Part shown: one piece after another, positions 3,731-59,397 of the stretch
How the letters are laid out: each line of letters starts with the position of its first letter
Numbering within the stretch: the first letter of the stretch is position 1
Assembly (NCBI RefSeq): GCF_006385705.1
Contig: NZ_VFRQ01000015.1
Coordinates: 1 to 64,000 of the forward strand
Direction of reading: 5' to 3'
Source of the DNA: Pontibacter mangrovi
GTDB taxonomy: Bacteria > Bacteroidota > Bacteroidia > Cytophagales > Hymenobacteraceae
DNA length: 64,000 nucleotides
Notes under the pieces: model-generated
Databases searched by the model: none
What the model was told of the DNA's origin: nothing
The model's input: the letters and a program-made list of their open reading frames with translations, nothing else
Program-made: the position numbers and the translations under genes

Positions 3731-3738
3731 TCCCTATC

Positions 3739-7639: not shown

Positions 7640-7645
7640 AGCGTT

Positions 7646-8767: not shown

Positions 8768-8770
8768 AGA

Positions 8771-9055: not shown

Positions 9056-9075
9056 AATATAATAGATTTATAGTG

Positions 9076-44352: not shown

Positions 44353-46632
44353 ATGAGTGGCAAAATGGAGAATAAAGTACTAACCCCTGATAAGGCTGTA
44401 GGTCAGCCCACTGCACAGGAGCAGAGAGTGTCTTTACCGGTTACAGGTATGAGCTGCGCCTCCTGCGCCCTCAGCGTGGAATCCATGGTAGGAGCCCAGC
44501 CTGGAGTGTCGCAGGCAGCGGTGAACTTTGCCTCCCAGACACTCCAGGTGTCTTATAGCCCTGATAAAATCACCCTTGCCGAGATACAGCGAAATGTGCA
44601 GGAGATAGGTTTTGACTTGATCGTTGATGAGGAAAACGCCCAGGAGAAGCAGGAAGAAGAGCAGCATAACCGTTACCAGACGCTGAAGAAGAGGACTATC
44701 GCAGCAGCCATTCTTACCCTGCCGGTGTTTATCATCGGGATGTTTTTTATGGATATGCCTTACGGGAACTGGATCATGATGGTGCTGAGCGCCCCGGTGC
44801 TGTTTTACTTTGGCCGAAGCTTCTTTATCAATGCCTTTAAGCAAGCCAGAAACGGAAAGGCAAATATGGACACGCTGGTGTCATTGAGTACAGGCATCGC
44901 CTTTGGCTTCAGTGTGTTTAACACCTTCTTTCCGGAGTTTTGGCTCACACGCGGGCTGCACCCGCACGTGTACTTCGAGGCCGCGGCCGTCGTGATCGTG
45001 TTCATCATGCTGGGTAAGCTGCTGGAGGAAAGGGCTAAATCGAATACCTCCACAGCCATTAAGAAGCTGATCGGCCTGCAGCCTAAAACCGTTTGGCTGG
45101 TAGAGGGGGACCACGAGCGGGAGGTGCCAATTTCACAGGTGCAGAAAGGCGACCTGCTGCTGGTGCGTGCCGGCGAAAAGATACCTGTGGACGGAGAGGT
45201 GGCGCAGGGCACTTCCTATGTAGACGAGTCGATGATTTCGGGGGAACCCGTACCGGTGGCCAAGCAGAAAGGAGACAAAGTGTATGCAGGCACCATCAAC
45301 CAGAAAGGCAGCTTCCGATTTGTGGCCGAGAAGGTAGGCAGTGAGACCATGTTGGCCCAAATTATTAAAATGGTGCAGGAAGCGCAGGGCTCCAAGGCAC
45401 CGGTACAGAAACTCGTGGACAAGATCGCGGGTATTTTCGTGCCAGTCGTGCTATTGATCGCGCTAGTAAGCTTTACGACTTGGTTGATGCTTGGCGGTGA
45501 CAATGCACTGACGCAAGGGCTGCTAGCCTTGGTCACCGTACTTGTGATTGCCTGCCCATGTGCCCTTGGCCTGGCAACCCCAACCGCTATCATGGTGGGT
45601 GTGGGCAAAGGTGCTGAGAACGGCATCTTGATTAAAGACGCCGAAAGTCTGGAGCAGGCCCATAAAGTGAATGCTGTTATTCTTGATAAGACGGGCACCA
45701 TAACGGAGGGCAAACCTGTATTAACGGATATAATTTGGGCTGGTGGAGCGGAAGCCCGAAAACAAACCCTGCAAACCATACTGCTGTCATTGGAACTGCA
45801 GTCAGAGCACCCGTTGGCTGAAGCAGTGGTCCGCTACCTGAAAGACCAGGAGGTAAGGTCACTTGAGCTGGACACGTTTGATAGTGTAACCGGGCGCGGG
45901 GTGAAAGCTTCCTTGCACGGAAACCGGTATTTAGCAGGTAATCATAGATTATTAGAAGAGGAAGGCGTACATGTTGATCCGAAGCTGACACAGCTAGCCA
46001 GCTCTTTAAGAGATGAGACCAAAACTGTTATCTTCTTTACAGAGAATAGTAGTGCTGTAGCTTTAGTAGCCATTGCAGACCAAATCAAGCAAAGTTCGGC
46101 GGCAGCCATCCGAACATTGCAAGAGCAGGATATTGAGGTGTACATGCTTACTGGCGATAATCAACAAACCGCTGCCAGTGTGGCAGCACAGGTAGGCATA
46201 AGGAATCATAAAGCAGAGGTTTTGCCTTCGGATAAAGCCGCTTTTGTAAAAGAGTTGCAAGCTCAAGGCAAGGTAGTAGCCATGGTGGGGGATGGCATCA
46301 ACGATTCGCACGCCCTGGCACAGGCTGATGTCAGTGTAGCCATGGGCAAGGGCTCTGACATAGCCATTGATGTCGCCAAAATGACCCTCATTTCCTCGGA
46401 TCTGCAGCAGGTTCCTAAGGCACTGAAGCTATCGAAGCAAACGGTGCGGGCCATTAAGCAAAACCTGTTCTGGGCCTTTATCTATAACCTGATAGGTATT
46501 CCTATTGCTGCAGGTGTGCTTTACCCGCTGTACGGCTTCCTGCTGGATCCCATGATTGCAGGTGCGGCCATGGCTCTGAGCTCTGTGTCTGTAGTTACGA
46601 ACAGTTTAAGGCTGAAGGCGCAGAAACTGTAA
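44353..46632 (+). CDS. copA: CopA Cu(I)-exporting P1B-1 ATPase
   Basis: A 759-residue P-type ATPase with one N-terminal HMA domain (GMSCASC, C35 and C38), helix-6 CPCALGLATP, phosphorylation site DKTGTITEG, TGDN and GDGINDSHALAQADVSVAMG. Eight membrane helices are evident. The class exports Cu(I) and Ag(I) from the cytosol to the periplasm, using copper handed over by CopZ, whose gene follows. It is transcribed divergently from the cus operon. All catalytic motifs are intact. An alternative start at M5 is possible. Confidence 0.95.
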   Translation: MSGKMENKVLTPDKAVGQPTAQEQRVSLPVTGMSCASCALSVESMVGAQPGVSQAAVNFASQTLQVSYSPDKITLAEIQRNVQEIGFDLIVDEENAQEKQEEEQHNRYQTLKKRTIAAAILTLPVFIIGMFFMDMPYGNWIMMVLSAPVLFYFGRSFFINAFKQARNGKANMDTLVSLSTGIAFGFSVFNTFFPEFWLTRGLHPHVYFEAAAVVIVFIMLGKLLEERAKSNTSTAIKKLIGLQPKTVWLVEGDHEREVPISQVQKGDLLLVRAGEKIPVDGEVAQGTSYVDESMISGEPVPVAKQKGDKVYAGTINQKGSFRFVAEKVGSETMLAQIIKMVQEAQGSKAPVQKLVDKIAGIFVPVVLLIALVSFTTWLMLGGDNALTQGLLALVTVLVIACPCALGLATPTAIMVGVGKGAENGILIKDAESLEQAHKVNAVILDKTGTITEGKPVLTDIIWAGGAEARKQTLQTILLSLELQSEHPLAEAVVRYLKDQEVRSLELDTFDSVTGRGVKASLHGNRYLAGNHRLLEEEGVHVDPKLTQLASSLRDETKTVIFFTENSSAVALVAIADQIKQSSAAAIRTLQEQDIEVYMLTGDNQQTAASVAAQVGIRNHKAEVLPSDKAAFVKELQAQGKVVAMVGDGINDSHALAQADVSVAMGKGSDIAIDVAKMTLISSDLQQVPKALKLSKQTVRAIKQNLFWAFIYNLIGIPIAAGVLYPLYGFLLDPMIAGAAMALSSVSVVTNSLRLKAQKL

Positions 46633-46696
46633 CCGTGGTGAATAATTATATAATAAATAATAAATATTGTGTAATAAGAAAGGTCTTGATGGGATC

Positions 46697-46704
46697 TATC
46701 TTTG
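46697..46704 (+). promoter_or_regulatory. copZ promoter -7 element
   Basis: TATCTTTG is an exact TAnnTTTG match, 41 bases before the copZ ATG. CopZ therefore probably has its own promoter besides read-through from copA. Confidence 0.5.
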
Positions 46705-46744
46705 TAAAATCCAAACTAAGTATAACTTCTAAAAGCATAAAAAC

Positions 46745-46954
46745 ATGAAAGACTTAAAGTTTAAAACCAACATAAACTGCGGCGGCTGTGTTTCTAAAGT
46801 AACCCCAGTACTCAACGCCGCCGAAGGTGTTTGCGAATGGACTGTGGATACAGCCAACAAAGACAAAGTGCTTACCGTGAAAACAGACTCTCTCTCTGCC
46901 AGTGAGGTCATCGCCACTGTAGAGAAGGCTGGCTTTAAGGCACAACCTATTTAA
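46745..46954 (+). CDS. copZ: CopZ-like copper chaperone
   Basis: A 69-residue single HMA domain. The metal loop is NINCGGCVSKV (C12, C15), followed by the usual helix-strand-strand-helix-strand order. It carries Cu(I) in the cytosol to CopA, whose gene lies 112 bases upstream in the same direction. Compared with the Cys-less relative at 20668-20907 it has the same framework with the metal site kept. Confidence 0.88.
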   Translation: MKDLKFKTNINCGGCVSKVTPVLNAAEGVCEWTVDTANKDKVLTVKTDSLSASEVIATVEKAGFKAQPI

Positions 46955-46991
46955 ATCAGTAATAGCCGGAATGGTTCGTTATAAACAAGGG

Positions 46992-47024
46992 AAGGCTCCT
47001 CATTCCGAAGAGCCTTTTCTTTTA
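46992..47024 (+). terminator. Intrinsic terminator after copZ
   Basis: Stem AAGGCTC/GAGCCTT (46992-46998 and 47010-47016) followed by TTCTTTT. It also separates the copper island from the convergent AbiE genes. Confidence 0.75.
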
Positions 47025-47046
47025 TCGTAATATCCCTTCTTATGTA

Positions 47047-48018
47047 CTAAAGGTTAATCTTTTGCGCTTTGATACGTGCGGAGATTATTTCTAAAATAGT
47101 AATCACCTCTTCCGGGTCAGGCAGCGTACCATACACGAGGGAGCGGAATTCCTGCTGGTAGGCCGTCTCTAAAGAATTCCAGACTCCTCTCACGTCGGCG
47201 AACAGCAGGCAGGCATCCAGCGGCTGCATGGCCCAGTCGCCCTGAAACTCGCTGTTGCGGGCATCATCAGCCTGCACGGCCTGAATCATCTCAAAGAAGT
47301 CCTCGCTGTGCAGAAATGCGGTCACTGCAGGTGCTTTCAGCATGGCGTGCAGGTCATATATGTGGCGGATCTTGCTACCTAATTCATCTACCGGGTTTTC
47401 GGCATAAGAAGCCCGCACCAGGGCGAGCACTTTCTCTGTGAAGGTGCGCTCCAGACTTACCACATTTACCTCAAAAGGCTCTAGTGCGTACTGGCGGATC
47501 ATGTCCAGCAACCCACGTTGAGCCATAAACTGGCTGATGTAGGTCTTGATTGGCATCAGCTGGTGCGGGTTGGGGCTGGCAAAGGAGTTGATTTCCACCA
47601 GAATCTTGTCGGTTGCCTGGCCATAGTCCCCCTGCACGGAGGCTCCATAGTCGTGCAGCGTTTTGCGGAAGCGGGAACCCTTGCTGGTCCGGAGCGGATC
47701 ATCTACCTCCACCATGTCCTTTGTGATCTCTTTTGAGATTTTGCGGATCAGCTGCATGACCTGGTTGTTAGTCATGCCCTCGTCAGCGTTGATGGCCAGG
47801 TCGATGTCCTCTGAAAAGCGCTCGATCAGGTTGTAGGCTTTGGACAGGGAGGTGCCGCCTTTGAAAATGGCCTGCTCCACGTAGGGGGAGTGGGCCAGGC
47901 GGTAAAGCACCAGTGTCACCCAGTAGTCCTTCTCCACGTACACATCCCTGATCTGCAGGGCCTCTGCCGTAGCCGTAATGGCATCCCGAAACACCTCCGG
48001 GTTTTGGTGCAGGTTCAT
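47047..48018 (-). CDS. abiEii: AbiEii-family nucleotidyltransferase toxin
   Basis: A 323-residue protein with the DUF1814 nucleotidyltransferase core: KDYWVTLVLYRL, then FKGGTSLSKAYNLIERFSED followed by IDLAI, giving the GGTSL and SEDIDL motifs of the minimal nucleotidyltransferase fold. AbiEii toxins modify tRNA or other RNA with nucleotides and halt growth until phage infection aborts. The paired antitoxin gene is immediately upstream and overlaps by four bases (ATGA). Together they form a type IV toxin-antitoxin system. The C-terminal part has an unrecognized helical domain. Confidence 0.88.
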   Translation of the reverse strand: MNLHQNPEVFRDAITATAEALQIRDVYVEKDYWVTLVLYRLAHSPYVEQAIFKGGTSLSKAYNLIERFSEDIDLAINADEGMTNNQVMQLIRKISKEITKDMVEVDDPLRTSKGSRFRKTLHDYGASVQGDYGQATDKILVEINSFASPNPHQLMPIKTYISQFMAQRGLLDMIRQYALEPFEVNVVSLERTFTEKVLALVRASYAENPVDELGSKIRHIYDLHAMLKAPAVTAFLHSEDFFEMIQAVQADDARNSEFQGDWAMQPLDACLLFADVRGVWNSLETAYQQEFRSLVYGTLPDPEEVITILEIISARIKAQKINL

Positions 48019-48740
48019 ATAATATTCCAGTCCTTTCTGTTAGGCAGTATGCTCTCGCTAATGCCCAGTTTGTATTTTGTCAGCGGGTTCAATGACTGCC
48101 TTAGTCTGTCTGCCTCCTCTGTAAAGCCCAGACGCTCCAGCAGGGCTCCCAGCAGGGCGCGGGTAGCGGGGTTATAGTCCAGCGCCAGCTCCATGAGCCG
48201 ATCCTTGTCGCGTTCAGCTAGCTCTTTGATATACTTAAGCAGAATAAGGATCGTCTTTTCGCTGTTGCGGTCCGGAATCTTCTTGTAACCGCGCAGAGCG
48301 TCCAGGATCTGAAGCTTGTCAATGTCAGACTCCTTGAAGTTGGTGGGGCTTTGAACATAACGGACTTTGGTTTTCCCTACATTCGCTACCCGGCGCTGCT
48401 TGCGTGTCATTAGCGTCACCTCCTGGGGAACCTGCGTGGTCAGACCTAGCTGGTTGTAAAGCCCCAAACCGCTCTCGTACCCTTTGACTTCGCCTTTGGA
48501 GGTGCTCAGGCTCTTGATGATCTCTTTTTCGGATGGTTTTACTTTTCCGAAAACAGTTTCCTTTTGCTTATAGTAGCGGCCTTTTGCCAGCCGGTTAATT
48601 ACCCCTTGCTTGGCCAGGCGGCTGAGCGCCGCCGCCAGGGCCTCCAGCTGGCTGTCGTTTACCTGAAAATCAGCGTAAGTTAGTAGCTGACCGGGCTGGG
48701 CCTGATCAATTCTTTCCCGGACTTGCTGCATGATGCTCAT
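48015..48740 (-). CDS. abiEi: AbiEi-type antitoxin
   Basis: A 241-residue protein with an N-terminal winged helix (LTYADFQVNDSQLEALAAAL, then LAKQGVINRLAKGRYY), followed by a longer C-terminal domain like DUF6088 (GYESGLGLYNQLGLTTQVP and QRRVANVGKTKVRYVQSP). AbiEi antitoxins repress their own promoter through the winged helix and counteract AbiEii indirectly. A 15-bp inverted repeat that overlaps the predicted promoter lies 65-104 bases upstream, exactly what autoregulation would need. Translationally coupled to the toxin. Confidence 0.82.
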   Translation of the reverse strand: MSIMQQVRERIDQAQPGQLLTYADFQVNDSQLEALAAALSRLAKQGVINRLAKGRYYKQKETVFGKVKPSEKEIIKSLSTSKGEVKGYESGLGLYNQLGLTTQVPQEVTLMTRKQRRVANVGKTKVRYVQSPTNFKESDIDKLQILDALRGYKKIPDRNSEKTILILLKYIKELAERDKDRLMELALDYNPATRALLGALLERLGFTEEADRLRQSLNPLTKYKLGISESILPNRKDWNII

Positions 48741-48784
48741 TGTTTCCTTTCTAAGTTGTGCACTAGTTTAGCCTAATGGTTCTA

Positions 48785-48844
48785 TAAAGGTAGTAGCTTG
48801 CCTATCATTTGTCAAGTTTTTTTGTTATTAAACTTGACAAATGA
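48785..48844 (-). promoter_or_regulatory. abiE promoter with overlapping 15-bp inverted repeat
   Basis: TCATTTGTCAAGTTT (48805-48819) and its perfect complement (48830-48844) are separated by 10 bases. On the minus strand the proximal arm contains TTGACA (48815-48810), 17 bases before TACCTTTA (48792-48785), a good -35/-7 pair. Start of transcription would be near 48778. A repressor dimer on the repeat would block the promoter. Confidence 0.7.
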
Positions 48845-49093
48845 CAAAAAAAACTTTAAAAGGAGCTTCTTAAATCCTCCAAGCGTTTTTCTCCTTTTAT
48901 GCTGCATCATACTTGGCAATGTTTTGGACTACAGCCTCAGGCATTATATAACGTGTAGCAGATTCGCCTATCAGGACCAAGCTTGATTCTACTTTATAGG
49001 TTATTACGGCTTACTTGATTGTATTAAAACAAGAAGGTGTATTAATTAGTAAACAAAATACTCTATATAGAGATATTTTTTTGAAAAATGCAC

Positions 49094-49128
49094 CGTATAC
49101 AAAAATTAAAAACATACATTTGTATACG
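49094..49128 (+). promoter_or_regulatory. Operator/promoter of the XRE-ImmA gene
   Basis: A 10-bp perfect inverted repeat CGTATACAAA/TTTGTATACG (49094-49103 and 49119-49128) with a 15-base spacer. TACATTTG (49115-49122), an exact -7 box, overlaps the right arm, placing transcription start near 49129 and leaving a leader of about 13 bases. It is likely bound by the XRE domain it controls. The rest of the 48741-49141 gap shows nothing else convincing. Confidence 0.65.
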
Positions 49129-49141
49129 AAAGGTCGGAAAA

Positions 49142-50203
49142 ATGGAAAACATAGTTGCAATCAATCTTACACGAGCCAGGCAATTCAGAGGTTTAACGAT
49201 GGATCAATTAGCTGGCAAGATTAATTGTTCGAAGCAAGCTATAAGTCATTATGAGAATGGTGTGAGGTATCCTGATAGCAAAACCTTACTAGCTATAGGT
49301 GATGCTTTAGATTTAGAGTTAGATTATTTTTATAGTGATAGTAGTGTAAAATTTAGCTTACATAACATTAGTTACAGACAAGGCTTCGGCCTTGATTCTA
49401 AACAAAAGCAGGATGTAGAAGACGAAACAAGCTCATTATTAAGTGACTATTTAGAACTAGAAGCCATTGCAAAAGAACTCGTTGTTTTTCAGAACCCCCT
49501 TGAAGATCTTGTGATTAGCAGTACTTCAGATGCTGAGAAAGCTGCAAAGCAACTTAGAAAGAGGTGGAAATTAGGAGAGGGTCCTATATCTAATATTACT
49601 GGTCTTCTGGAGAGAAAGGGTGTGAGAATCATTAAGTGTGACTTTGACTTTTTTTACACTCACGAAGGCTTGTCCGGTTGGGCTGAAGATAAGAAAGTTC
49701 CAGTAATTGTCCTTAATTCTAGACAGCAAGACTTGTCCCGAATGAGGTTTACAATTCTTCATGAGCTGGGTCATCTCTTATTGGTAATGGCTGAGAATGT
49801 GGACGAGATCGCTATTGAAAGAATTTGTGACGCTTTTGCAGGGGCTGTGCTGCTTCCAGTTGAAATATTAATCCAAGAGTTCGGGAAGAACAGAACAGCT
49901 ATTACGATGCCTGAACTCAAGAGGATTAAAGAGCTATACGGAATATCTGTTGCTGCAATCATGGTCCGAGCTTCTGTAACCAAGCTGATATCATGGGATG
50001 CCTATAACAAGTGGAAGCAATCTGACTTCTCTGATTTTGACTATGGGCAGTTTAGTGGTACAGAGGAGCCACAAAGGTTTGAACAGATGCTGTACCGTTG
50101 TTTAAGTGAACGAAAAATTGGTTTTGACAAAGCTGCAAGATTGGCCAGAAGAGATGAGGCCGAGCTAAGAAAAATTTATAGCCAGCAACAATTAGAGTTT
50201 TGA
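49142..50203 (+). CDS. XRE-ImmA/IrrE metallopeptidase regulator
   Basis: A 353-residue protein from ATG 49142; 18 further codons are open upstream but run through the operator. Residues 5-60 form an XRE helix-turn-helix (LTMDQLAGKINCSKQAISHY). Residues 150-260 form an ImmA/IrrE zinc peptidase with HELGH (207-211). The class cleaves or inactivates a repressor or antitoxin on stress, or serves as the antitoxin of an associated toxin. The next gene, one base downstream, encodes a PIN-like protein, an arrangement seen in toxin-antitoxin-like pairs. It is AT-richer than the metal genes, a sign of different origin. Confidence 0.87.
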   Translation: MENIVAINLTRARQFRGLTMDQLAGKINCSKQAISHYENGVRYPDSKTLLAIGDALDLELDYFYSDSSVKFSLHNISYRQGFGLDSKQKQDVEDETSSLLSDYLELEAIAKELVVFQNPLEDLVISSTSDAEKAAKQLRKRWKLGEGPISNITGLLERKGVRIIKCDFDFFYTHEGLSGWAEDKKVPVIVLNSRQQDLSRMRFTILHELGHLLLVMAENVDEIAIERICDAFAGAVLLPVEILIQEFGKNRTAITMPELKRIKELYGISVAAIMVRASVTKLISWDAYNKWKQSDFSDFDYGQFSGTEEPQRFEQMLYRCLSERKIGFDKAARLARRDEAELRKIYSQQQLEF

Positions 50204-50204
50204 G

Positions 50205-50684
50205 ATGGGCCCGATAGTTATAACAGAGATCAACACAGCAGCAACGCTGTACAGGTTGGGCCTGTTGAAATACTTTAACAGCAACAACCTGAGCATACAT
50301 ATAACAGACATCTGTTATAACCATAAAGGTAGCCATGATGTGTTAACTTTATACAATAACAAAATGCTTGCTAAACGGATGGAAGAACAAGGCTTTCTAA
50401 AAGTTGTAGAACTAACTGAGATCCAGATGAAGCAAGTAGCAAAACTGTACAGTGAATATAAGCCCAAGTTTGTTGTTAAGACTATATCAGCACTTGTTTA
50501 TGCGCACGAGGGAAACATGAAGGTGATCAGCGAAGATGAGCTATTAGGAGATGTTGCTAGAGGCGAATTGAACCTGAAGGTCTACAATCAAGAATGGTTT
50601 GTTGACAGCCTGCTACAGGAACTTGTAGCAATGGGAGTTAAAATTGATTCTTCACAATTAAAAGAGATGATTCAGTATTTCTAG
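50205..50684 (+). CDS. PIN-like protein paired with XRE-ImmA
   Basis: A 159-residue protein starting one base after the previous stop. Its layout follows PIN-domain proteins: strand VITEINTAATLYRLGLLKYF (position of the first catalytic acid, here Glu), central helices, then ALVYAHEGNMKVISEDELLGDVA (position of the late acidic cluster) and WFVDSLLQELVAMGVKID. First Asp to Glu and general divergence make ribonuclease activity uncertain. The tight coupling to an XRE-ImmA gene supports a toxin-like or effector role. Confidence in the fold is moderate. Confidence 0.6.
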   Translation: MGPIVITEINTAATLYRLGLLKYFNSNNLSIHITDICYNHKGSHDVLTLYNNKMLAKRMEEQGFLKVVELTEIQMKQVAKLYSEYKPKFVVKTISALVYAHEGNMKVISEDELLGDVARGELNLKVYNQEWFVDSLLQELVAMGVKIDSSQLKEMIQYF

Positions 50685-51006
50685 AGAAATATATTATAGA
50701 AGAATAATAAAGAAAAAAGCCAGGCATTGATACCTGGCTTGTAGATTCCGGTTAAGGAAGACAAAAGCCTGCTAAGCTTTTGGGGTTCTATTGATTTCGC
50801 ACTTCAAAGTTACCTCCTTTAACTGAAATCCGCAAGCTTACTGGTGATTATAAACTACCTATGACAAAACATAGGTGGGCCTGCATGTTCAATTTTAAGA
50901 TTTTATAAAAGCACGTGCTTGTAATCGCATACTGGGTAGAGCCCCAGCTGCTGCAGAAATGATATGTGGCAAACAGTATTATTTGTTGAATATCAAAGTT
51001 AAAGAA
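50685..51006. other. Intergenic region before the ubiquitin-like operon
   Basis: An 8-bp stem AAGCCAGG/CCTGGCTT (50717-50724 and 50733-50740) lies after the PIN-like gene. Its A-rich run is on the upstream side, so it would terminate minus-strand better than plus-strand transcription. The remaining bases hold no recognizable promoter box or operator. Confidence 0.4.
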
Positions 51007-51699
51007 ATGACTTTAGCCAACGGGGCGCCGCAAACGCAAAAAAACAAAAAGGCTCTGAAATTTATGATCGAAGGGGAGCCTTTTGAAACATTAGATCAGT
51101 ATAAAACGGGAGCCGAGTTAAAACAACTCAGAGGTATTCCCCAAGGAGTAGAGCTTTTTCTGTCAATTAAAGAGCCTTACGAAGACGAGTTGATAGGTAA
51201 TGACACCAAGGTTAACTTGGCAAGGCCTGAAATAGAGCGCTTCTTTGTAAAACAAAAGCTGAAGCTCACCATAAATAAAGAGCCTTTTGTGTGGTTTAGC
51301 CAGTTTATCTCTGGCAAACAGATCAGAGAGTTGGGTAATATTCCAGCTGAACATGAGATTTATCTTGACATCAAGGAGCCCTATGTGAATACCCTTATTC
51401 AGGATGATACCGTGATTGATCTAGCCAGACCTGGTAAAGAACACTTCTTCTCTAAGGAGCAATCTGTTAAGGTTATTATCATCAATGGCAGACCAAAGGA
51501 TTGGGCCGATAAAACAGTCACCTTTGAACAAGTCGTTATATTGGCCTTCGGATCTTTTGATAATAGCCCGAATAAGGTGTACACCGTTACCTTTAGTGAA
51601 GGGCCAGTATCAAAGCCTGAAGGTACTATGGTGAAGGGCTCAGTTGTTGAAGTTAAAAACAAAATGGTTTTCAATGTCTCAGCAACTGATAAATCATAG
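51007..51699 (+). CDS. Multiubiquitin protein with three ubiquitin-like domains
   Basis: A 230-residue protein from ATG 51007; an in-frame ATG 48 bases upstream is less likely. It contains three beta-grasp-like units in tandem. Units 1 (15-82) and 2 (83-150) align closely: I..EPF, SGK/TGAELKQLR..GIP, LFLSIKEPYEDEL / IYLDIKEPYVNTL, DD/DT..LARP, FF. Unit 3 (153-230) begins VIINGRPKDW and ends GTMVKGSVVEVKNKMVFNVS-ATDKS. This matches the multiubiquitin (Multi_ubiq) family of bacterial ubiquitin-like systems. None of the units ends in Gly-Gly. It overlaps the E1 gene by 26 bases, so it is translated together with it. Probable substrate or modifier of the neighbouring ThiF enzyme. Confidence 0.88.
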   Translation: MTLANGAPQTQKNKKALKFMIEGEPFETLDQYKTGAELKQLRGIPQGVELFLSIKEPYEDELIGNDTKVNLARPEIERFFVKQKLKLTINKEPFVWFSQFISGKQIRELGNIPAEHEIYLDIKEPYVNTLIQDDTVIDLARPGKEHFFSKEQSVKVIIINGRPKDWADKTVTFEQVVILAFGSFDNSPNKVYTVTFSEGPVSKPEGTMVKGSVVEVKNKMVFNVSATDKS

Positions 51700-52852
51700 T
51701 CCTGACCTAAAGCGTCTTAGAGACGAAGGCTATGAAGTAGAAGTACTTGGTGGATATTTACTTATCCACCAAGTACCCTATCTTAATGATATTGGTGAGG
51801 TTAAGCGCGGGACATTGGTGAGCGACCTAGTATTGATAAACAATACTACAGTTGACAAACCCAAAGATCATGTGATTCACTTCATAGGTGAAAACCCCTG
51901 CAACGTTGGTGGAACGGTTATTTCAGCGATACAATATGTAAGTACTACTAGAGCACTTAGGGAAGGCATTACTGTTAATTATTCGTTTTCCAACAAGCCT
52001 CAAGGCGGTTACCCGAACTACTACGAGAAATTTAAGAGGTATGCTGAGGTGATCTCTGCTCCTGCGAAGTACTTGCATCCTGATCTTACGGAGAAAACTT
52101 TCAAGGTAATACCCTCCAGGAATGAGGAGTCAGTGTTTAAATACATTGACACAAACTCTAGTAGGGCAAACATTGACATAATTAACTCAAAGTTTAAGGG
52201 GCAAAAGGTTGCCATCATAGGTATTGGAGGTACTGGAGCTTATGTTTTAGACTTGGTTGCTAAAACGCCAGTGCAGGAAGTACATATATTCGATGGAGAT
52301 CACTTCTTACAACATAATTCATTTCGCTCACCTGGTGCAGCATCCGTTGAAGATTTAGATGAAAAGTGGATGAAAGCTAAATATTTTGCAGATATCTACT
52401 CTAAAATGCACAATGGTATAACTCCTCATCCCTACTATGTGGATGGCTCCAATTATCACGAACTTGATCAAATGGACTATGTTTTCCTATGCGTTGATAA
52501 AAATAGAGTTAGGAAAGGCATTATGGATTATTTACTGCACAAAGGCATCCCTTTTATAGATGTGGGCTTGGGCGTTAATGTCGTTGATGACAAGTTGATC
52601 GGGACCACTAGGGTAACTGCGGGTACACCTTCCAAGAATGATCATCTCAAGGACAGAGTTTCTGAGGTGGATGATGAGAATAATGAGTACTCGACAAATA
52701 TTCAGATTGCTGACCTAAATTCGCTTAATGCGTCTTTGGCGGTCATCAAATGGAAGAAGATGTGCGGCTTTTATCAAGACTTGATCGAGGAGCACCACAG
52801 TGCATATTCAATTAACGTCTCTAAAATTTTCAATGAAGACCGTACAGCATAA
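51674..52852 (+). CDS. ThiF/E1-like enzyme with N-terminal DUF6791-like domain
   Basis: A 392-residue protein from ATG 51674. Residues 175-392 are an E1/ThiF adenylating domain: VAIIGIGGTGAYVLD (nucleotide loop, 183-188), then HIFDGDHFLQHNSFRSPGA (Asp, Asn, Arg for ATP and Mg), and DYVFLCVDKNRVRKGI. The Cys expected for thioester formation in the E1 half is not obvious. The N-terminal 145 residues match a domain I know as DUF6791 (HFIGENPC, C76; SFSNKPQGGYPNYYEKFKRY). The Cys in GExPC could be an E2-like acceptor; that is inference. It would adenylate the multiubiquitin protein and pass it on. Overlaps both neighbours. Confidence 0.87.
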   Translation: MSQQLINHSPDLKRLRDEGYEVEVLGGYLLIHQVPYLNDIGEVKRGTLVSDLVLINNTTVDKPKDHVIHFIGENPCNVGGTVISAIQYVSTTRALREGITVNYSFSNKPQGGYPNYYEKFKRYAEVISAPAKYLHPDLTEKTFKVIPSRNEESVFKYIDTNSSRANIDIINSKFKGQKVAIIGIGGTGAYVLDLVAKTPVQEVHIFDGDHFLQHNSFRSPGAASVEDLDEKWMKAKYFADIYSKMHNGITPHPYYVDGSNYHELDQMDYVFLCVDKNRVRKGIMDYLLHKGIPFIDVGLGVNVVDDKLIGTTRVTAGTPSKNDHLKDRVSEVDDENNEYSTNIQIADLNSLNASLAVIKWKKMCGFYQDLIEEHHSAYSINVSKIFNEDRTA

Positions 52853-53294
52853 TTTTGTTGAGTTCATACCTGATCATTTAGACGAGGGGGTGCTGTACAT
52901 TTCCTTAAATTATTGCACAGCCATACACAAATGTGTGTGTGGCTGTGGCAATGAGGTTGTTACGCCATTCTCCCCAACGGATTGGTCACTAACATTCAAT
53001 GGGAAAAGTGTCACCTTGAGGCCTTCCATAGGTAATTGGAACTTTGAGTGCAGATCCCACTACTTTATTACTCAAAACAAAATAGAGCGGTGTAGGGATT
53101 GGACCAACAAAGAGATTGCTGTTGGGAGAAACGTTGATAGGGAGAATAAAGCTGATTTCTATTCAGAGGATAAGTTAGAAGCTGATGTAGACATATTTGA
53201 AAACAGGATTGATCAGAGTGAAGGAGCTTCGAAGAGGTGGAGCCTAAAGTCTATATTTACAAAAATAAAACTGAGTTGGACTCGGCGGCAATAG
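52833..53294 (+). CDS. DUF6527 protein of the ubiquitin-like operon
   Basis: A 153-residue protein starting at ATG 52833 inside the 3' end of the E1 gene (20-base overlap). It carries the DUF6527 core: HKCVCGCGNEVVTPFSPTDW (C34, C36, C38), then LRPSIGNWNFECRSHYFI (C73, H76), a likely zinc site. The C-terminal 60 residues are charged and low in conserved motifs. DUF6527 regularly accompanies multiubiquitin and ThiF genes and its activity is not known to me. Possible roles include E3-like, protease-like or substrate adaptor. A JAB peptidase gene is absent from the cluster. Confidence 0.82.
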   Translation: MKTVQHNFVEFIPDHLDEGVLYISLNYCTAIHKCVCGCGNEVVTPFSPTDWSLTFNGKSVTLRPSIGNWNFECRSHYFITQNKIERCRDWTNKEIAVGRNVDRENKADFYSEDKLEADVDIFENRIDQSEGASKRWSLKSIFTKIKLSWTRRQ

Positions 53295-53690
53295 TGCTGC
53301 CGAGGATTATAATTAAAAATATGACTATTGCACAACTGTTCAAATACCGCTGTAGGCATATAAGAGCAGGCATTGTTAAGCGGGCAAGGAAGACTTTTAA
53401 GGATGAGAACGAACTGCTGCCCTCATCTTTGAGATTACTTTGGCTACCTAAATCACACCTGTTTAACATAAGGTAAATTATAAGACTATGTATATATAAC
53501 TATCATCTATTATAAAACAATCCTTAATTATGGCAATATATTGGTTGACAATCCTATACAATAGGAACACTTGAAGATTGAGAAATAATAAGGCGTTATA
53601 AATACTAAATATTTTAGCTTTCATATTTTATAAAGTTAAAATATTTCTCTAAAGTTGCGTAATAGCTAATATTTTTAGCACACATGCAAC
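53295..53690. other. AT-rich stretch between the ubiquitin-like operon and umuDC
   Basis: A 79-codon frame (53237-53476) overlaps the end of the DUF6527 gene but is not convincing as a gene. The right end contains the umuDC dyad (53654-53690). Otherwise the segment is AT-rich with no recognized element. Confidence 0.5.
53654..53690 (+). promoter_or_regulatory. 37-bp nested dyad abutting the umuD start
   Basis: Outer arms GTTGCGT and ATGCAAC (53654-53660 and 53684-53690) and inner arms GCTAA/TTAGC (53665-53669 and 53675-53679) share one centre, 53672. TATTTTTA (53670-53677), one base off TAnnTTTG, lies inside. The dyad ends exactly one base before the umuD ATG at 53691. A LexA- or UmuD-type repressor bound here would block transcription and the start codon. 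Confidence 0.6.
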
Positions 53691-54146
53691 ATGAATACAA
53701 AGATATTATTACCCTCAGAAACAGTAAGCTTTATTCTGCTAGGTCGTGACACAGAAACAAAGCACCCGCTCTTCGCGGCACGTGTCCCTGCTGGCTTTCC
53801 CAGTCCGGCAGAAGAGCACATTGAGGACAGAATTAGTCTATCATCTTATTTAAATGGACATCCCGACGCTACTTTTTACGTGCAGCTAGAGGGGGATTCT
53901 ATGATAGACTACAACCTGCTGGAGGGCGACCTGCTCGTCGTAGACCGTTCACTGCACGTGCGCAGCGGCGACATCGTGCTGGCCAATGTCAACAGCGAAT
54001 ATACAGTAAAGAAGCTGGAGATAACAGAAACTGGAGTCCGGCTTCTCCCCGGCAATAAAAAGTACAACCCTGTAGAGATCACGGAGGATTTGGAGTTTTT
54101 GGTCTGGGGCGTAGTGCGGGGTGTAGCCAGGAGGATACGCCAATGA
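53691..54146 (+). CDS. umuD: UmuD-like S24 peptidase
   Basis: A 151-residue S24 protein. The self-cleavage site is in RVPAGFPSPA (A34-G35), the nucleophile in LEGDSMID (S70), and the general base in EYTVKKLE (K107). LLEGDLLVVDRSLHVRSGDIV is the usual strand-rich core. RecA filaments would trigger cleavage, giving UmuD' that partners UmuC. It overlaps umuC by four bases (ATGA). An adjacent dyad suggests damage-controlled expression. Confidence 0.9.
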   Translation: MNTKILLPSETVSFILLGRDTETKHPLFAARVPAGFPSPAEEHIEDRISLSSYLNGHPDATFYVQLEGDSMIDYNLLEGDLLVVDRSLHVRSGDIVLANVNSEYTVKKLEITETGVRLLPGNKKYNPVEITEDLEFLVWGVVRGVARRIRQ

Positions 54147-55411
54147 CTAATTTGTTTGCCCTTGTAGACTGCAATAACTTTTACTGCTCTGTGATGCGCG
54201 TCTTTCACCCCGAGCTAAACAATGTGCCTGTGGTAGTGCTTTCTAACAACGACGGCTCGATCATCGCTAGAAGCAATGAGGCCAAAGCACTGGGCCTGCA
54301 GATGGGGCAGCCCTTTTTCGAAGCCAAGTCAACTATAGACAAATATAATGTAGTCTACTTTAGCTCTAACTATACGCTTATAGGTGATATGTCTGCCAGG
54401 GTGCACAGTACCTTGGCCCGCTTCACTCCCAATATGGAGATTTACTCCATTGACGAGGCTTTTTTGGACCTAGGTGGCTTTAAAGGAATAGATATACCGG
54501 ATTATGCACGCACCATCCGAAACACCGTCAAAAAGTGGATAGGCATACCCGTCAGTATAGGTGTCGCGCCCACGAAAACCCTGGCGAAGCTTGCGAACCG
54601 GATTGCCAAAAAGTCTGAGAAGGCCAACGGTGTGCTGGTGCTGACGGAAGCTAAGCATTTGGAGGTAGCACTAAAAAGAACCGACGTCGGTGACGTATGG
54701 GGCATTGGCTCCCGCTATGCCACAAAACTCCACAGCTTCGGCATAAACAATGCCTGGCAGCTAGCCAATGTCACGGATGCTTTTGCTAAAAAACATTTAA
54801 CGGTGGTGGGGCTGCGGCTGGTGAAAGAGTTGCGTGGGGAGCCATGCACTGACTTAGAGATCGAGCCTCCGGCAAAAAAAGGGATCTGCTCCTCTCGCTC
54901 ATTCGGGCAACCAGTAACCTCGCTCAACGACCTAAAGGAAGCAGTGGCTATCTACGCCTCCCGATGCGCCTACAAGCTACGGCAGCAAAAAAGCGCTTGC
55001 CGCGTGGTAACCGTGTTCATTCATACCAATCCATTCCGGGAACAGGAGCCGCAATACTACAACACCAAAACCATCTACCTGCCCGTTTCTTCCTCCTCCA
55101 CTATAGAATTAGTTCAGTACGCTACCATGGCACTGGAACACATCTACCGGGACGGGTTTGTCTACAAGAAAGCCGGCGTGTACATCACGGAGATTGGACC
55201 GGCAGACGGCGCACAGATGAATATCTTTGACAGGGTGGATCGGAGTAAGCATGCAAGCCTCATGCTCACGTTGGATCAACTTAACAGGTCTATGGGAAAG
55301 GGCACGGTAAAGGTAGCTGCTGAGGGGGTGAGCCATATTTGGGAGCCTAAAGCTGAATTCTCTCCTCCATGCTACACCACAAGAATAGAAGATGTCCTGA
55401 AAGTGCGATAA
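54143..55411 (+). CDS. umuC: UmuC-like Y-family DNA polymerase
   Basis: A 422-residue translesion polymerase. The N-terminus FALVDCNNFYCSV carries the first catalytic Asp and steric-gate Phe-Tyr context. IYSIDEAFLDL gives the DE pair of the second catalytic motif. KLANRIAKKS and helix-hairpin-helix DVGDVWGIGSRYATKLHSFG follow, then the little-finger region. Mutagenic DNA polymerase V is formed with UmuD'. Plasmid copies of umuDC raise survival after DNA damage and can promote mutation. All recognized motifs are intact and the length is normal for UmuC. Confidence 0.93.
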   Translation: MTNLFALVDCNNFYCSVMRVFHPELNNVPVVVLSNNDGSIIARSNEAKALGLQMGQPFFEAKSTIDKYNVVYFSSNYTLIGDMSARVHSTLARFTPNMEIYSIDEAFLDLGGFKGIDIPDYARTIRNTVKKWIGIPVSIGVAPTKTLAKLANRIAKKSEKANGVLVLTEAKHLEVALKRTDVGDVWGIGSRYATKLHSFGINNAWQLANVTDAFAKKHLTVVGLRLVKELRGEPCTDLEIEPPAKKGICSSRSFGQPVTSLNDLKEAVAIYASRCAYKLRQQKSACRVVTVFIHTNPFREQEPQYYNTKTIYLPVSSSSTIELVQYATMALEHIYRDGFVYKKAGVYITEIGPADGAQMNIFDRVDRSKHASLMLTLDQLNRSMGKGTVKVAAEGVSHIWEPKAEFSPPCYTTRIEDVLKVR

Positions 55412-55467
55412 CGCTCCAGCAAAGGATAGCTATCTTGTATATCAAATTAGATGTGCTAAATTCGATA

Positions 55468-55821
55468 ATGGTTAAACTTAAAATGTACATGAAATTTAAA
55501 GAGGCAATAAAATTTATAGAATGGAATAAAGACAAAGCAGCAGTCGCAGTGAATAAAGAACAGATGGAAATTTTCATTCTTGATGTCTTTGTAGATGATC
55601 TTGAGTCTGATACTAGTGTTGAGGATATACCTGTGTCTGTTTCTTATGAGCAAGATTTAGGGCCTGGTGCTGGTTCAGAAGACTTCTATGAAATCTCAGA
55701 ATGCCTGGAGGAGCATCCTCATGTAGAAGCCTTAAAATTCTTTATCGTTGACAAAGAGCTTGCCGATAGTATCCGAGGGCATGAGTTTTGGTATCAGCTT
55801 GAGGCGCTGGGGCTTCAATAG
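55468..55821 (+). CDS. Hypothetical acidic protein
   Basis: A 117-residue protein if started at ATG 55468 (MVKLKMYMKFKEAIKFIEW); further starts at 55483 and 55489 are possible. It is acidic, with alternating strands (KAAVAVNKEQMEIFILDVFVDD) and a C-terminal helix (ELADSIRGHEFWYQLEALGL). No family recognized. It sits alone after umuC in the same direction. Confidence 0.45.
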   Translation: MVKLKMYMKFKEAIKFIEWNKDKAAVAVNKEQMEIFILDVFVDDLESDTSVEDIPVSVSYEQDLGPGAGSEDFYEISECLEEHPHVEALKFFIVDKELADSIRGHEFWYQLEALGLQ

Positions 55822-55865
55822 AAACTTGAAATGGGTGGATTTAATTAACAAAGGAAGGAAACCAA

Positions 55866-56228
55866 ATGATAAAGATAAAACATCCCGTAGAGGAGTGTAA
55901 TGCAAGTCAGGAAAAATTTATGGCCACCTGTCCTAGCGAGGAGCGCCGCTTTCACGAGCTGACATTTACGGTAGGTAATATTTCTTATCGTTACCACCAC
56001 GAAGCTAAGGACTATTCTCCTAATATGATTGATTATCAGGAATGGCTTGAGGGTCTGCCCGATAATGTGCGCAAAGGAATGGAAGAACAAGGTTTCGAGA
56101 ATTGTAAAAGCATACTATCATTCACACGCTATGTAATGGAAAAAAATGATGTGGGAATGGAGGAGTATATTCGCCTTAATATGGACCCGCAGGACTACGA
56201 AGAGTACCTAAAAATAGCGAAAGGCTAG
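55866..56228 (+). CDS. Hypothetical protein
   Basis: A 120-residue soluble protein. HELTFTVGNISYRYHHEAKDY, then IDYQEWLEGLPDNVRKGMEEQG, and a C-terminal EYIRLNMDPQDYEEYLKIAKG. No catalytic motif known to me. Its acidic helical C-terminus and small size resemble plasmid accessory proteins. It lies 44 bases after the previous small gene, possibly co-transcribed. Confidence 0.5.
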   Translation: MIKIKHPVEECNASQEKFMATCPSEERRFHELTFTVGNISYRYHHEAKDYSPNMIDYQEWLEGLPDNVRKGMEEQGFENCKSILSFTRYVMEKNDVGMEEYIRLNMDPQDYEEYLKIAKG

Positions 56229-56335
56229 GTGTAATAAGTTAAATACTTTCCTTATTTGATGTTGGCGCTGAAGTTCGCTTCATGCTTAACATCTTTTATC
56301 TGCTAGAGTATTAAAGGGATACCTAAAATCTTACC

Positions 56336-56779
56336 TTAGTCATTGGCCTTATAATTCAGGTATTCATTTTTCTCTCCTGAAGCCTCATTGTAATTAAAAG
56401 TCTTCTCATCAATCTGCTTACCGTTCTTGTAAATAACAAAGCGCATCTGCATGGAAGCAGGACCATCCTCTACGGCACTAAACTCATTGGCAGCATGAAT
56501 GGTAAGTTCCCTTACATTATCCGCTTCAAAAGAATAGGACGTCTCCGAAAGGTTGCCGTCAAATAACACGGGCGGCATAGCTTCGCCAGTACCCCTCACT
56601 TTGAAATCGCCACCTCCAATAGTAATAATCTTAATGAATTTCTCATAATCCCCAGACTGGCTGTAATCGACCCGATAGGTAGCAGTATCAGGCAGGACCG
56701 GGCCCTCGCCTTGGTCATCACAACCAGCAAAAAATAGAACCATGCATAACAGAAGGGAGAAGATAGATAGCTTTTTCAT
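56336..56779 (-). CDS. Hypothetical lipoprotein
   Basis: A 147-residue protein with lipobox MKKLSIFSLLLCMVLFFAGC (C20), followed by an Asp/Gly linker. The rest alternates strands (ATYRVDYSQSGDYEKFIKI, ELTIHAANEF, MQMRFVIYKNGKQIDEKTF), compatible with a small beta-sandwich of the kind common in Bacteroidota surface lipoproteins. No ligand or enzyme can be assigned. It lies 134 bases downstream of the primase-like gene, in the same direction. Confidence 0.65.
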   Translation of the reverse strand: MKKLSIFSLLLCMVLFFAGCDDQGEGPVLPDTATYRVDYSQSGDYEKFIKIITIGGGDFKVRGTGEAMPPVLFDGNLSETSYSFEADNVRELTIHAANEFSAVEDGPASMQMRFVIYKNGKQIDEKTFNYNEASGEKNEYLNYKAND

Positions 56780-56912
56780 AGCCTAAAAATTAAATGGTTT
56801 ATAGTTAGGTGAAAAATGTTTTCTACAGAGACGTAATTAACCGCAACAGCCAGGCGAGACACAGAAACTGCATTTCATCTCCTAAAGTCTGACTCCTATA
56901 CTAGATTCCAGA

Positions 56913-58013
56913 TCATAACTTCACTTTCATAGGGATACGATTTTCCTGGTCGTTTTTGGGATGTATGATGTCGTTATAGTCTTTATGGCCAAGGGGCTTA
57001 TGCACCTGAAGTCCGGAACGAATACCGGAGTTCTTCTCAAAGGCAAAAAGGCTCAGCTTGTCTACAGGAATATCAAATTTCTTTTCATCCAAGCTGAAGG
57101 TAATACTGTCGGCATTCTTTGTAAAGGTGTAGGGCTTACCTGCTATCGCCGTGGCCAGATAGATATCATAGATCTTTCCCTGGTAATCGTTATCGAAAAT
57201 GGTATGCTTTTGAGCATGCGGCCACGCCTGCAGGGAAAGCTCCACCTGCATTCTCGACATTCCCCCGCCAAACGAGACGAACACTGAGTTGCTGAAGTCC
57301 CGCTTATCCTTCTCCAGCTGATAGAAGCTCATGGCATCTATAGGGTTCTCCGCAAAGTAGACATGGCGTGTAAGAACCGGATTCTGCGCAAAGTCGGCTA
57401 CCCAGACACCGTGCTTGCGGTCGCTGCCCGCTGCCACGCCCTTAAAGCCATAATTTCTAAGGTCGTAGCCTATCGTTTCGCCGCTAGCTGGCCTTTGCAG
57501 CGGGAAGGCGATATTGGTGTAGGCGTTATCCTTCTCTGCGTCCCGTACCAGCCTAATATAAGGCAGGAACAGCTGCACCGTCTCGTTAGAGAGACCACGT
57601 TCCTTGATCAGGTAATGCAGCTTAAAAACAGAGGCCTCGGATTCGACAAACCTGCTTTGATCAAAAGGCTTTGCTTCCGTAACGGCGTAGGCAGAAGCTT
57701 TGGGTTGAGAGGCATAAGCATATTTAGACAGCACCTTATTGATTCCGTCGATCTCATTGCGAAAACTTCCCTGGAAGCGGTGCAGCCGGTTGGCCACAAA
57801 ATCTATCACCGACCCCTTGTCGTTGCTTCCATCCCGGTTGAAGTACATCTGCCGGGAGCTGTCGCCTGGGTTGTTGATAATGATTCTGTCTCCGTCAGGG
57901 TGCTTGAACTCAGGGCTCTTTCTCCCCTTCAAGGGATCGAATACATAGCCTAGCGATTCGGCGACCTGAATGATCGACACCTGCTCTCTGTATTCCTGAA
58001 AGGTCATAGGCAA
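56913..58013 (-). CDS. Plasmid primase-like Toprim protein (DUF3991-type)
   Basis: A 366-residue protein. The N-terminal 100 residues resemble a degenerate primase zinc-binding domain (FDPLKGRKSPEFKHPDGDRI, NRDGSNDKGSVIDFVANRL) without Cys ligands. A DUF3991-like middle follows. The C-terminal part has a Toprim-like core: HVYFAENPIDAMSFYQLEK (Glu motif) and HTIFDNDYQGKIYDIYLA (DxD-like motif). Such proteins occur on Bacteroidota plasmids and conjugative elements, possibly for DNA processing or priming after transfer. The next gene upstream encodes a DUF4099 protein and ends two bases before this start, an operon. Confidence 0.75.
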   Translation of the reverse strand: MPMTFQEYREQVSIIQVAESLGYVFDPLKGRKSPEFKHPDGDRIIINNPGDSSRQMYFNRDGSNDKGSVIDFVANRLHRFQGSFRNEIDGINKVLSKYAYASQPKASAYAVTEAKPFDQSRFVESEASVFKLHYLIKERGLSNETVQLFLPYIRLVRDAEKDNAYTNIAFPLQRPASGETIGYDLRNYGFKGVAAGSDRKHGVWVADFAQNPVLTRHVYFAENPIDAMSFYQLEKDKRDFSNSVFVSFGGGMSRMQVELSLQAWPHAQKHTIFDNDYQGKIYDIYLATAIAGKPYTFTKNADSITFSLDEKKFDIPVDKLSLFAFEKNSGIRSGLQVHKPLGHKDYNDIIHPKNDQENRIPMKVKL

Positions 58014-58014
58014 G

Positions 58015-58647
58015 TTAACGTTTGATAGACATAACAGGGGTTTCCTTCACTGCCAAGGTGTGGCTTTCTTTAACTGAGACCTGTCCCTCCACTATCTTTA
58101 GTCCTTTAGGATCATTCAGATCCAGGCGGGCCGAGATCAGCTGATCCTTTGCTTTGGAATAAAGCTCCAGAGTACCTCCTTGCCGCAGGTGCTCTTTCTG
58201 ATCAGTACTCAAAACTATATCCTTGATAGCACTGGGCACTTGGATATCCCGCACCCTCACCCTTAGAATCTCGTTGGTCTCCTTATCCAGCTGGAAAACA
58301 TACAGCTCTTTCTCCCCATTAAGCGATTTAAATGGCTTTACCAGTAACTCCCCGTTTTGCAGTTTCTCCAACTCCTGCTTACTGGCGCCAATCTCATTCT
58401 GTATCTCCCTCCGTATGGGGTGGATCAGCAGTGATAGAGTGCTGTCTGGATTCATCTTCAGGCTCAATTTTGCATCCACGGTAAGGGGTTCCAGACTGGC
58501 GTCCTTGATAGTAAAGGTATTCAGGCTCGTGCGCCTGCCCGTCAACAGGCTAACCAAATCCTCAGACTTCATGGAGAGTACGTCTTTCTTATTCATTCCA
58601 AGACGCTCAAACTGACCATAAGGCAGATCTTTAATATCGAAGTTCAT
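58015..58647 (-). CDS. DUF4099/DUF3945-type plasmid protein
   Basis: A 210-residue protein beginning NFDIKDLPYGQFERLGMNKK and continuing LVSLLTGRRTSLNTF, the DUF4099 signature found on Bacteroidota plasmids. The second half has strand-rich DUF3945-like repeats (ELYVFQLDKETNEILRVRV). It is in an operon with the primase-like gene. Function unknown; it appears next to conjugation or DNA-processing genes in other elements. Confidence 0.72.
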   Translation of the reverse strand: MNFDIKDLPYGQFERLGMNKKDVLSMKSEDLVSLLTGRRTSLNTFTIKDASLEPLTVDAKLSLKMNPDSTLSLLIHPIRREIQNEIGASKQELEKLQNGELLVKPFKSLNGEKELYVFQLDKETNEILRVRVRDIQVPSAIKDIVLSTDQKEHLRQGGTLELYSKAKDQLISARLDLNDPKGLKIVEGQVSVKESHTLAVKETPVMSIKR

Positions 58648-58936
58648 AATTTATTCAGATCATGGATATGCTTTTTTAAAAATACGTTAAAACAATGTAC
58701 AGGTATATAAAATATAGCAATTTAAAATTATTCTATGCAAATTTTGTATAAAATATGTATTTTTATAAAAAATTTATATAATTATATAAAATTCATGTTA
58801 TTTCAAAGTGTAGATGTTTTTACACGAATTTATACTTTTAACCTAACGAGTACTTGAGCAAGACGCTCTGGGAGTTCGAAACGAATGGTTTAATAAGTGC
58901 GGAAGCTCCAAAAATATGACTTAGATATGAAGTTGA

Positions 58937-59350: not shown

Positions 59351-59397
59351 GGCGATTTAGTTAGTACAGGTACGCAAACAACTTATAATTGAGGCCG

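Follow-up and report, generated by a model that had tools for sequence, protein, structure and literature searches.

An apparently intact, minimal relative of the Bub operons with a serine-ended ubiquitin-like protein on a plasmid-like Pontibacter contig

The first 64,000 nucleotides of contig NZ_VFRQ01000015.1 of Pontibacter mangrovi (the window) carry, at 51007–53294, an operon of three overlapping genes for a ubiquitin-like protein (Ubl), a DUF6791–ThiF protein of the ubiquitin-activating (E1) type and a DUF6527 protein. Judged by its sequence, the operon is a genuine, apparently intact and widespread minimal relative of the Bub systems. We read it, with a probability of roughly 55%, as a mobile, stress- or phage-responsive system for Ubl activation and conjugation that is sister to Bub. 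We favor this reading because the adenylation residues are invariant within a BubCD-like fold, the Ubl is homologous to that of PDB entry 9cd2 and all three genes occur together at nearly every locus; because regulator or defense genes lie upstream, a Bub operon takes its place near the same umuDC genes on another plasmid, and many Bub operons themselves carry CapW or CapH+CapP; and because the genome gave no match to the JAB peptidase or E2 conjugating-enzyme families searched for and selection acts on the Ubl serine and on a stem-loop inside the E1 gene. The first-pass annotation knew of no defined function for the three-gene form, but the form itself is not new: the layout is already known as a gene neighborhood (the type 6e subset of Iyer et al. 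2006) and a solved relative of the Ubl also exists. Among the matches listed in literature searches whose coverage left out most subscription journals, none besides Iyer et al. concerned the DUF6791 form. Newly described here are the extent of the cassette, the Ubl/E1 overlap with its serine end, the DUF6791 cysteine, the E1 stem-loop, the classes of upstream genes and a Pontibacter actiniarum plasmid whose matching umuDC genes have a Bub operon close by.

Results

Three overlapping genes without JAB or a separate E2

The features of the operon are as follows.

51007–51699, forward strand: Ubl, with three PF14452 Multi_ubiq stretches (E 5.4e-28), three beta-grasp units and the C-terminus T-D-K-S.
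51674–51699, forward strand: Ubl/E1 reading-frame overlap of 26 nt, exact in 76 of 78 rows and longer in loci L048 and L058.
51674–52852, forward strand: E1, ATG start at 51674, with DUF6791 at 51701–52153 and a ThiF adenylation domain match at 52190–52570.
51743–51776, forward strand: conserved 14-bp stem-loop within the E1 coding sequence, identified by synonymous shuffles, compensatory pairs and one site per matched locus.
51869–51901, forward strand: His66 (codon 51869–51871) and Cys76 (51899–51901) of DUF6791, invariant in 52 of 52 rows.
52833–53294, forward strand: DUF6527 protein, PF20137 (E 1.5e-24), candidate metal site C34-x-C36-G-C38 ... C73-x-S75-H76.

Open frames and Pfam domains bear out the three overlapping genes proposed in the first-pass annotation, E1 and the DUF6527 gene sharing 20 nt. 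The proposed lack of JAB and of a separate E2 gene extends to the whole genome (35 contigs, 4.88 Mb), which contains one copy of the operon and in which Prok-JAB (PF14464), Prok-E2_E (PF14462) and Prok-E2_B (PF14461) all went unmatched at E 0.001. The beta-grasp units and the E1 fold that it had assumed are likewise recovered, the former by the Pfam and 9cd2 matches of the Ubl and the latter by an E1 model whose adenylation half lies nearest to BubCD.

The Ubl ends in a selected serine

Residues 21–230 of the Ubl align with 9cd2 (E 6.5e-23), whose C-terminus likewise reads T-D-K-S. The multi-ubiquitin domain proteins of 9cd2 and 9d59, the subject of a 2025 study by Gong and colleagues, reportedly form Ca2+-dependent dimers and filaments. 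The number of Ubl units varies between loci, with the last unit and tail retained, and the terminal residue is Ser in 60 of 60 rows, L048 and L058 included. The overlap count comprises 76 rows, 25 of them recovered without a seed spanning the E1 N-terminus, and excludes L048 and L058 for their longer overlap, the broken locus L036, L060 for want of a Ubl, L116 with its unaligned N-terminus, L006 as identical to the window, and any second operon within a genome. Across the 43 different sequences of the overlap, the Ubl always closes with a Ser codon (TCA in 20, TCG in 12, TCT in 11), and the E1-frame residue over it is His in 20, Arg in 12 and Leu in 11. This Ser codon begins with T in every one of the 43, even though the E1 frame reads that base in third position; the terminal Ser is therefore under selection in the Ubl.

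A BubCD-like adenylation half is fused to DUF6791

Pfam places DUF6791 (PF20590) at E1 residues 10–160 (E 4.9e-55) and ThiF (PF00899) at residues 173–299 (E 3.4e-11), and in NCBIfam the E1 scores above cut-off in PRK06153.1-4, ‘hypothetical protein’. The AlphaFold2 model has a mean predicted local distance difference test score (pLDDT) of 89.9; the structure match lists are filled by the adenylation half, and the fold results that follow cover that half only. BubCD is the best Foldseek match (E 2.7e-14; Z 24.7, root-mean-square deviation 2.9 over 225 residues), ThiF ties with it to within 1 (Z 24.1), and MccB reaches Z 22.0. By sequence, BubCD (E 0.0027) and MccB (E 0.0046) are again matched. 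A BFVD search returned 10 matches at E ≤0.001, the top named ones being ThiF or ubiquitin-activating types with unrelated enzymes lower, and the PADLOC E1–E2 models match E1 residues 148–288 only (best E 1.3e-6). Invariant in 52 of 52 E1 rows are the GxGGxG glycines G183, G185, G186 and G188, together with D207, D209, N215, R218, K234 and D275.

The sole invariant cysteine of the E1 is C76, which lies in DUF6791 in a His66-x9-Cys76 arrangement whose spacing we take to be that of His75 and Cys85 in UBE2D2; H66, G72, P75 and S106 are also invariant. Across a sample of 296 genomes, DUF6791 occurred at seven places in six genomes, in frames of 383–405 aa and never as a stand-alone protein there.

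A stem-loop lies inside the E1 gene

An inverted repeat at E1 nucleotides 61–111 is common to 26 sequences, from Bacteroidota and one unclassified bin (L031). When 52 distinct E1 genes were synonymously reshuffled with their own codon usage (300 draws), the mean z was −2.4 and 27 of the 52 fell below −2. With 25 draws, a coarser scan gave z −2.5 for the stem-loop window (28/52), against −0.36 to +0.36 for 21 other windows (0–6/52). Within the 14-bp stem 83.0% of cells are paired, and the inner eight pairs are retained almost throughout, the outer ones being frequently broken. In seven pairs both partners have changed, a count reached by 1 of 500 shuffles, and the covariation score was reached by none of 500, probabilities that are not strict, the rows being related by descent; one of five measures, the number of further pair types, was unexceptional (130 of 500 shuffles as high). 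Codon choice is biased in the stem: His32 is CAC in 24 of 25 sequences, compared with 108 of 348 His codons elsewhere, and Gly26 is GGT in 24 of 26, compared with 206 of 589. At the covarying columns 22–31 a Tyr or His codon faces one for Ile, Val, Thr or Ala, and coupling at the level of the protein may account for some of the covariation there, but not for the synonymous bias. By these measures the stem-loop is stronger than synonymous codons predict and is under selection, and it may have a regulatory role.

Searching 74 sources (1.09 Mb) with the stem-loop gave plus-strand matches at E <0.1 at 39 loci, all at this E1 position, and the minus-strand matches were the same sites. An operator function is not favored, because the matches are confined to one site in E1 and the upstream genes of the carriers differ. 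The signal is uneven across taxa: z −2 is not reached in any of the seven proteobacterial rows tested (L042, L054, L061, L062, L095, L096, L099), the archaeal L045 or the Bacteroidota rows L002, L004, L063 and L064, and the cyanobacterial L098 stands at −2.09. Rfam gave no match at E up to 1 within 50600–53400, and we found no earlier report of the element, for which no literature search was made.

The DUF6527 protein

In an alignment of 48 DUF6527 rows, including two from Bub-type loci, C34, C36, C38 and C73 are invariant and H76 is present in at least 90%. The predicted structure (mean pLDDT 85.9) is beta-rich at residues 1–86. Nine of the 12 Bub-type loci inspected have a DUF6527 gene, by annotation or by a match; in the others its slot holds a small gene (L117, L119) or nothing annotated (L118). 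Two Bub-type loci carry additional genes: in Bradyrhizobium (L125, 5244–6848) a phosphotransferase gene separates E1 from DUF6527, and in Nostoc (L124, 6200–9214) the Bub operon is followed by nucleotidyltransferase and SAVED protein genes, a CBASS-like arrangement.

Distribution

By tblastn, the E1 matches 115 of 72,556 plasmid records, 108 of which cover at least 80% of the query, and four IMG/VR contigs also encode relatives. DUF6791-type E1s occur in 14 of 395 genomes of the phylum (own genome included, two split), 71 matching overall but mostly through the ThiF half only; among 59 relatives, again counting the own genome, three match. A scan of genome contigs yielded 55 loci, one identical to the window and many from metagenome bins, mostly Bacteroidota and also Proteobacteria, Nitrospira, Actinobacteria, two Nitrososphaerota archaea and others. 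Our locus set comprises 61 loci (L002–L064 without L005 and L006), and all three operon genes are found in 60; the exception, L060, has a contig that begins inside E1. Cross-phylum transfer of the E1 was considered and is not shown by the tree, in which Bacteroidota needs four changes and the deep forks are weak. One genome, Mucilaginibacter oryzae (L034), has two divergent DUF6791-type operons within 8 kb, at 1596–3754 (reverse strand) and 6829–9080 (forward strand). Another record, L006 (NZ_VFRP01000020.1, 43674–60849), is labeled as the alphaproteobacterium Amaricoccus solimangrovi and is identical letter for letter to window 43674–60849; its DNA is Pontibacter-plasmid-like, and we suspect a mislabeled or cross-contaminated assembly.

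The operon belongs to a larger mobile cassette

The unit delimited in the first-pass annotation, 51007–53294, proved too small, as the alignment with Adhaeribacter aquaticus DNA (L007) runs for 4.4 kb and takes in two further genes.

48909–53304, no strand assigned: mobile cassette of XRE–ImmA gene, PIN-like gene and Ubl operon with a terminator-like hairpin at its end; 91.5% identity to L007.
49136–50203, forward strand: fusion of XRE (HTH_3; PF01381, E 1.8e-12) and ImmA/IrrE peptidase (M78; PF06114, E 4.2e-14).
50205–50684, forward strand: 159-aa PIN-like protein, partner of the XRE–ImmA gene; its homologue in L008 matches PF01850 at E 7.8e-4, below cut-off.
53281–53304: terminator-like hairpin at the cassette end.

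Between window 40001–64000 and the 17-kb L007 locus there is no second alignment at E 1e-10 beyond the cassette. Of the XRE–ImmA/PIN pair that had been named here, the first member stands and the PIN label is weaker: no Pfam family matches the 159-aa protein itself significantly, and its weak PIN support comes through homologues. The XRE–ImmA protein, which matches PADLOC models RmrA (E 1.2e-46) and capP (E 3.4e-13), is likely a stress-responsive regulator or an antitoxin to the PIN-like gene. Together with umuD/umuC at 53691–55411, this gene confirms the stress-gene surroundings. The low-GC block fared less well: GC content is indeed about 0.37–0.41 across 48.5–53.9 kb, compared with 0.45–0.56 at 40–48.5 kb and 0.50 over umuC, but low GC fails to single out the cassette because values near 0.40 recur at 55.5–57 and 58–59.5 kb. 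A sigma-70 scan gave nine sites, fewer than the 12.8 found in shuffles. An AbiEii toxin/AbiEi-like (DUF6088) pair lies directly left of the cassette (47047–48740, reverse strand), and at the start of the contig, window 1–90, stand short tandem repeats of a ACTTATTAATTCTT-like unit.

The contig is plasmid-like, by its similarity to Pontibacter plasmids. On the P. actiniarum plasmid, homology to the window resumes at 53608, just ahead of umuD, and a Bub operon lies 2.3 kb from umuD with three genes between, one of them ImmA-type; the JAB–E1 of this operon matches Citrobacter BubCD at E 4.9e-79. A Tunicatimonas plasmid has a DUF6791-type operon immediately adjoining umuDC. This P. actiniarum arrangement makes the DUF6791 and Bub types look interchangeable.

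Regulator and defense genes lie upstream

We surveyed the neighbors of 64 operons, of which 61 offer 2.5 kb or more of upstream sequence and 56 as much downstream, and counted genes within 5 kb; the seeds for the neighbor classes were drawn from the same loci, several of which are near-copies. An ImmA/M78 gene lies upstream of the operon at 25 of the 61 loci and downstream at one, and AAA and subtilase genes (IetAS-like) are each found upstream in 15 and downstream in one. Smaller classes are WYL (4 upstream, 0 downstream) and UvrD (5 and 2). PADLOC identified one AAA and one subtilase protein as IetA (5e-162) and IetS (E 0), the assignment at other loci being by homology, and at least 8 of the 15 IetAS-like loci are related copies of one element (75–100% to L012 over long stretches). 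IetAS is presented, in the available text of its source, as a phage-defense system of undescribed mechanism (PMC9958689). In Pseudomonas aeruginosa (L095) the upstream pair matches capP (2.3e-44) and capH (2e-8), as separate genes. Within this set, L012 and L014 share 17,173 nt at 99.98% identity, IetAS-like genes and Ubl operon included, although their records name Pedobacter chinensis and Chryseobacterium ureilyticum; either recent transfer or contamination would account for this.

Discussion

The operon suggests a short route from Ubl synthesis to conjugation. The XRE–ImmA protein would repress the operon and release it upon DNA damage or infection. The ThiF half would then adenylate the C-terminal carboxylate of the Ubl at its encoded Ser, a step supported by the fold and the invariant residues; because no Prok-JAB was found in the genome, the Ubl would need no prior trimming. 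Next, the Ubl could move to Cys76 of the fused DUF6791, which would replace the separate E2 of Bub, and from there to a target protein. Meanwhile, DUF6527, an accessory common to Bub, may bind metal and help to choose, present or release targets, and the early E1 stem-loop, an element evident from its conservation, could keep E1 scarce relative to Ubl. In the strictest version of this scheme, which we advance tentatively and would not bet on, the Ubl system is self-contained: the Ubl is made mature with its C-terminal Ser, adenylated there and passed directly to the sole conserved Cys of an E2-like DUF6791, with no E1 Cys, separate E2 or JAB, and the Ubl:E1 ratio is set by the embedded stem-loop.

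Several results weigh against a Ubl conjugation system of this kind. No Cys is conserved in the adenylation half among the 52 rows, so that a classical E1 thioester is not expected. For DUF6791, scanning 41 members against Pfam with E allowed up to 10 brought up no E2 family, and a PDB profile search gave three weak matches, none significant (best E 0.081). Comparing it by hhalign with 19 Prok-E2_E rows as query gave a score of 23.25 at E 0.0046 and a probability of just 7.6%; none of 200 DUF6791 column shuffles scored as high, by a narrow margin (best 22.9), and halves of the Prok-E2_E set scored 13.55 and 26.89. With DUF6791 as query the score was 16.96, below the best of 60 shuffles (17.14), at a probability of 0.9%; against Prok-E2_B the probability was 0.3%. 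By comparison, E2_E and E2_B, both established E2 families, reach about 17 when set against one another, but E2_E and Ubl, which are unrelated, reach 17.6. Given the negative scans, the marginal shuffles and the asymmetry of the scores, we keep the suggestive E2-likeness of DUF6791 as a lead only. The DUF6527 model had no Foldseek match at E <0.5 and no VIA-align match at Z ≥5, which we do not take as an argument for a new fold. With respect to defense, tblastn found no E1 relative in 50,697 phage records, 13 of 61 loci have none of the tested upstream classes, and the available text of PMC13373217 gives phage protection by Bub itself as undemonstrated.

DUF6791 might instead be a peptidase or hydrolase that trims or removes the Ubl, with the T-x-K-S tail as a conserved propeptide and the E1 conjugating alone or with a host factor. 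Its place in the protein, which is that of JAB in Bub E1s, and its invariant H66, C76 and S106 would suit such an enzyme, and a 2026 study by Ye and colleagues reportedly describes a family of serine proteases in certain Bub pathways. A role analogous to JAB was proposed for the N-domain by Iyer et al. 2006, as far as the available text goes (PMC1779556). We nevertheless find this account doubtful, for the scan of 41 DUF6791 members detected no protease family, the Ubl has no Gly near its end to expose, unlike the Bub examples, and selection acts on the last Ubl residue itself.

Chemistry of the MccB kind is a further alternative. The E1 would add a small adduct to the Ubl C-terminus, for example a nucleotide or an ester on the Ser side chain, and the multi-unit Ubl would assemble or signal without protein targets. 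MccB requires Asn at the end of MccA, and the Ubl likewise has an invariant non-Gly C-terminal residue; the varying unit number with a fixed last unit and tail, and the presence of MccB among both fold and sequence matches, point the same way. BubCD is the better match, however, and a context of DUF6791 and DUF6527 resembles conjugation systems, so we regard an MccB-like pathway as unlikely. More improbable still is a sulfur-carrier pathway of the ThiS/MoaD kind in which DUF6527 supplies a metal site: the ThiF fold match would accommodate it, but the Ubl lacks a Gly-Gly end, and no sulfurtransferase or cofactor gene appears among the annotated neighbors inspected.

If the operon is indeed a conjugation system sister to Bub, few routes to Ubl activation or conjugation would be smaller, its Ubl C-terminus would differ from the Gly of ubiquitin, and it would show how E1 and E2 functions can merge and how a processing peptidase can be lost. 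The exchange with Bub near the same umuDC genes, together with similar upstream regulators, provides a natural pair for probing pathway function, and the stem-loop within E1 offers a concrete target for regulatory work, accessible by synonymous changes.

Comparison with known systems

Bub is the closest counterpart. Both systems combine a multi-beta-grasp Ubl, a ThiF E1 with a fused N-terminal domain and a DUF6527 gene, their E1 adenylation domains are of one type, and both are found on plasmids with helix-turn-helix (HTH) plus ImmA or helicase genes upstream in several cases. By contrast, Bub-type E1s carry JAB where this E1 carries DUF6791, and Bub operons have a Prok-E2_E gene or fusion that this operon and genome lack. 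The Ubl ends also differ. Among 11 Bub-type Ubls read, three end in Gly, two have a Gly no more than two residues from the end, five have Gly-Glu ahead of an E2 part and one (L119) is ambiguous, the position of the Bub cut being inferred; the present Ubl ends in Ser, like its homologue in 9cd2. Bub reportedly conjugates through oxyesters. Regulators responsive to DNA damage, either CapW or CapH+CapP, accompany 219 of 544 Bub operons according to the available part of PMC13373217; in our cassette HTH and ImmA domains are both present, but in one protein nearer to RmrA models, whereas L095 has a separate pair.

More broadly, the logic of E1, E2 and Ubl is shared with Bil (BilABCD) and with Cap2 of type II CBASS, although Bil has separate E2 and JAB genes in the available text of PMC11354881. 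The layout most like the present one is type 6e of Iyer et al. 2006, which, in the available text (PMC1779556), includes E1s with an uncharacterized N-domain replacing JAB, alongside a polyUbl of one to three units and a Cys/His protein. In our present reading, DUF6791 would be that N-domain. The type 6e motif C-x3-C-x35-38-H-x2-C has similar spacing to C34-x3-C38-x34-C73-x2-H76 of the DUF6527 protein, with the last pair reversed.

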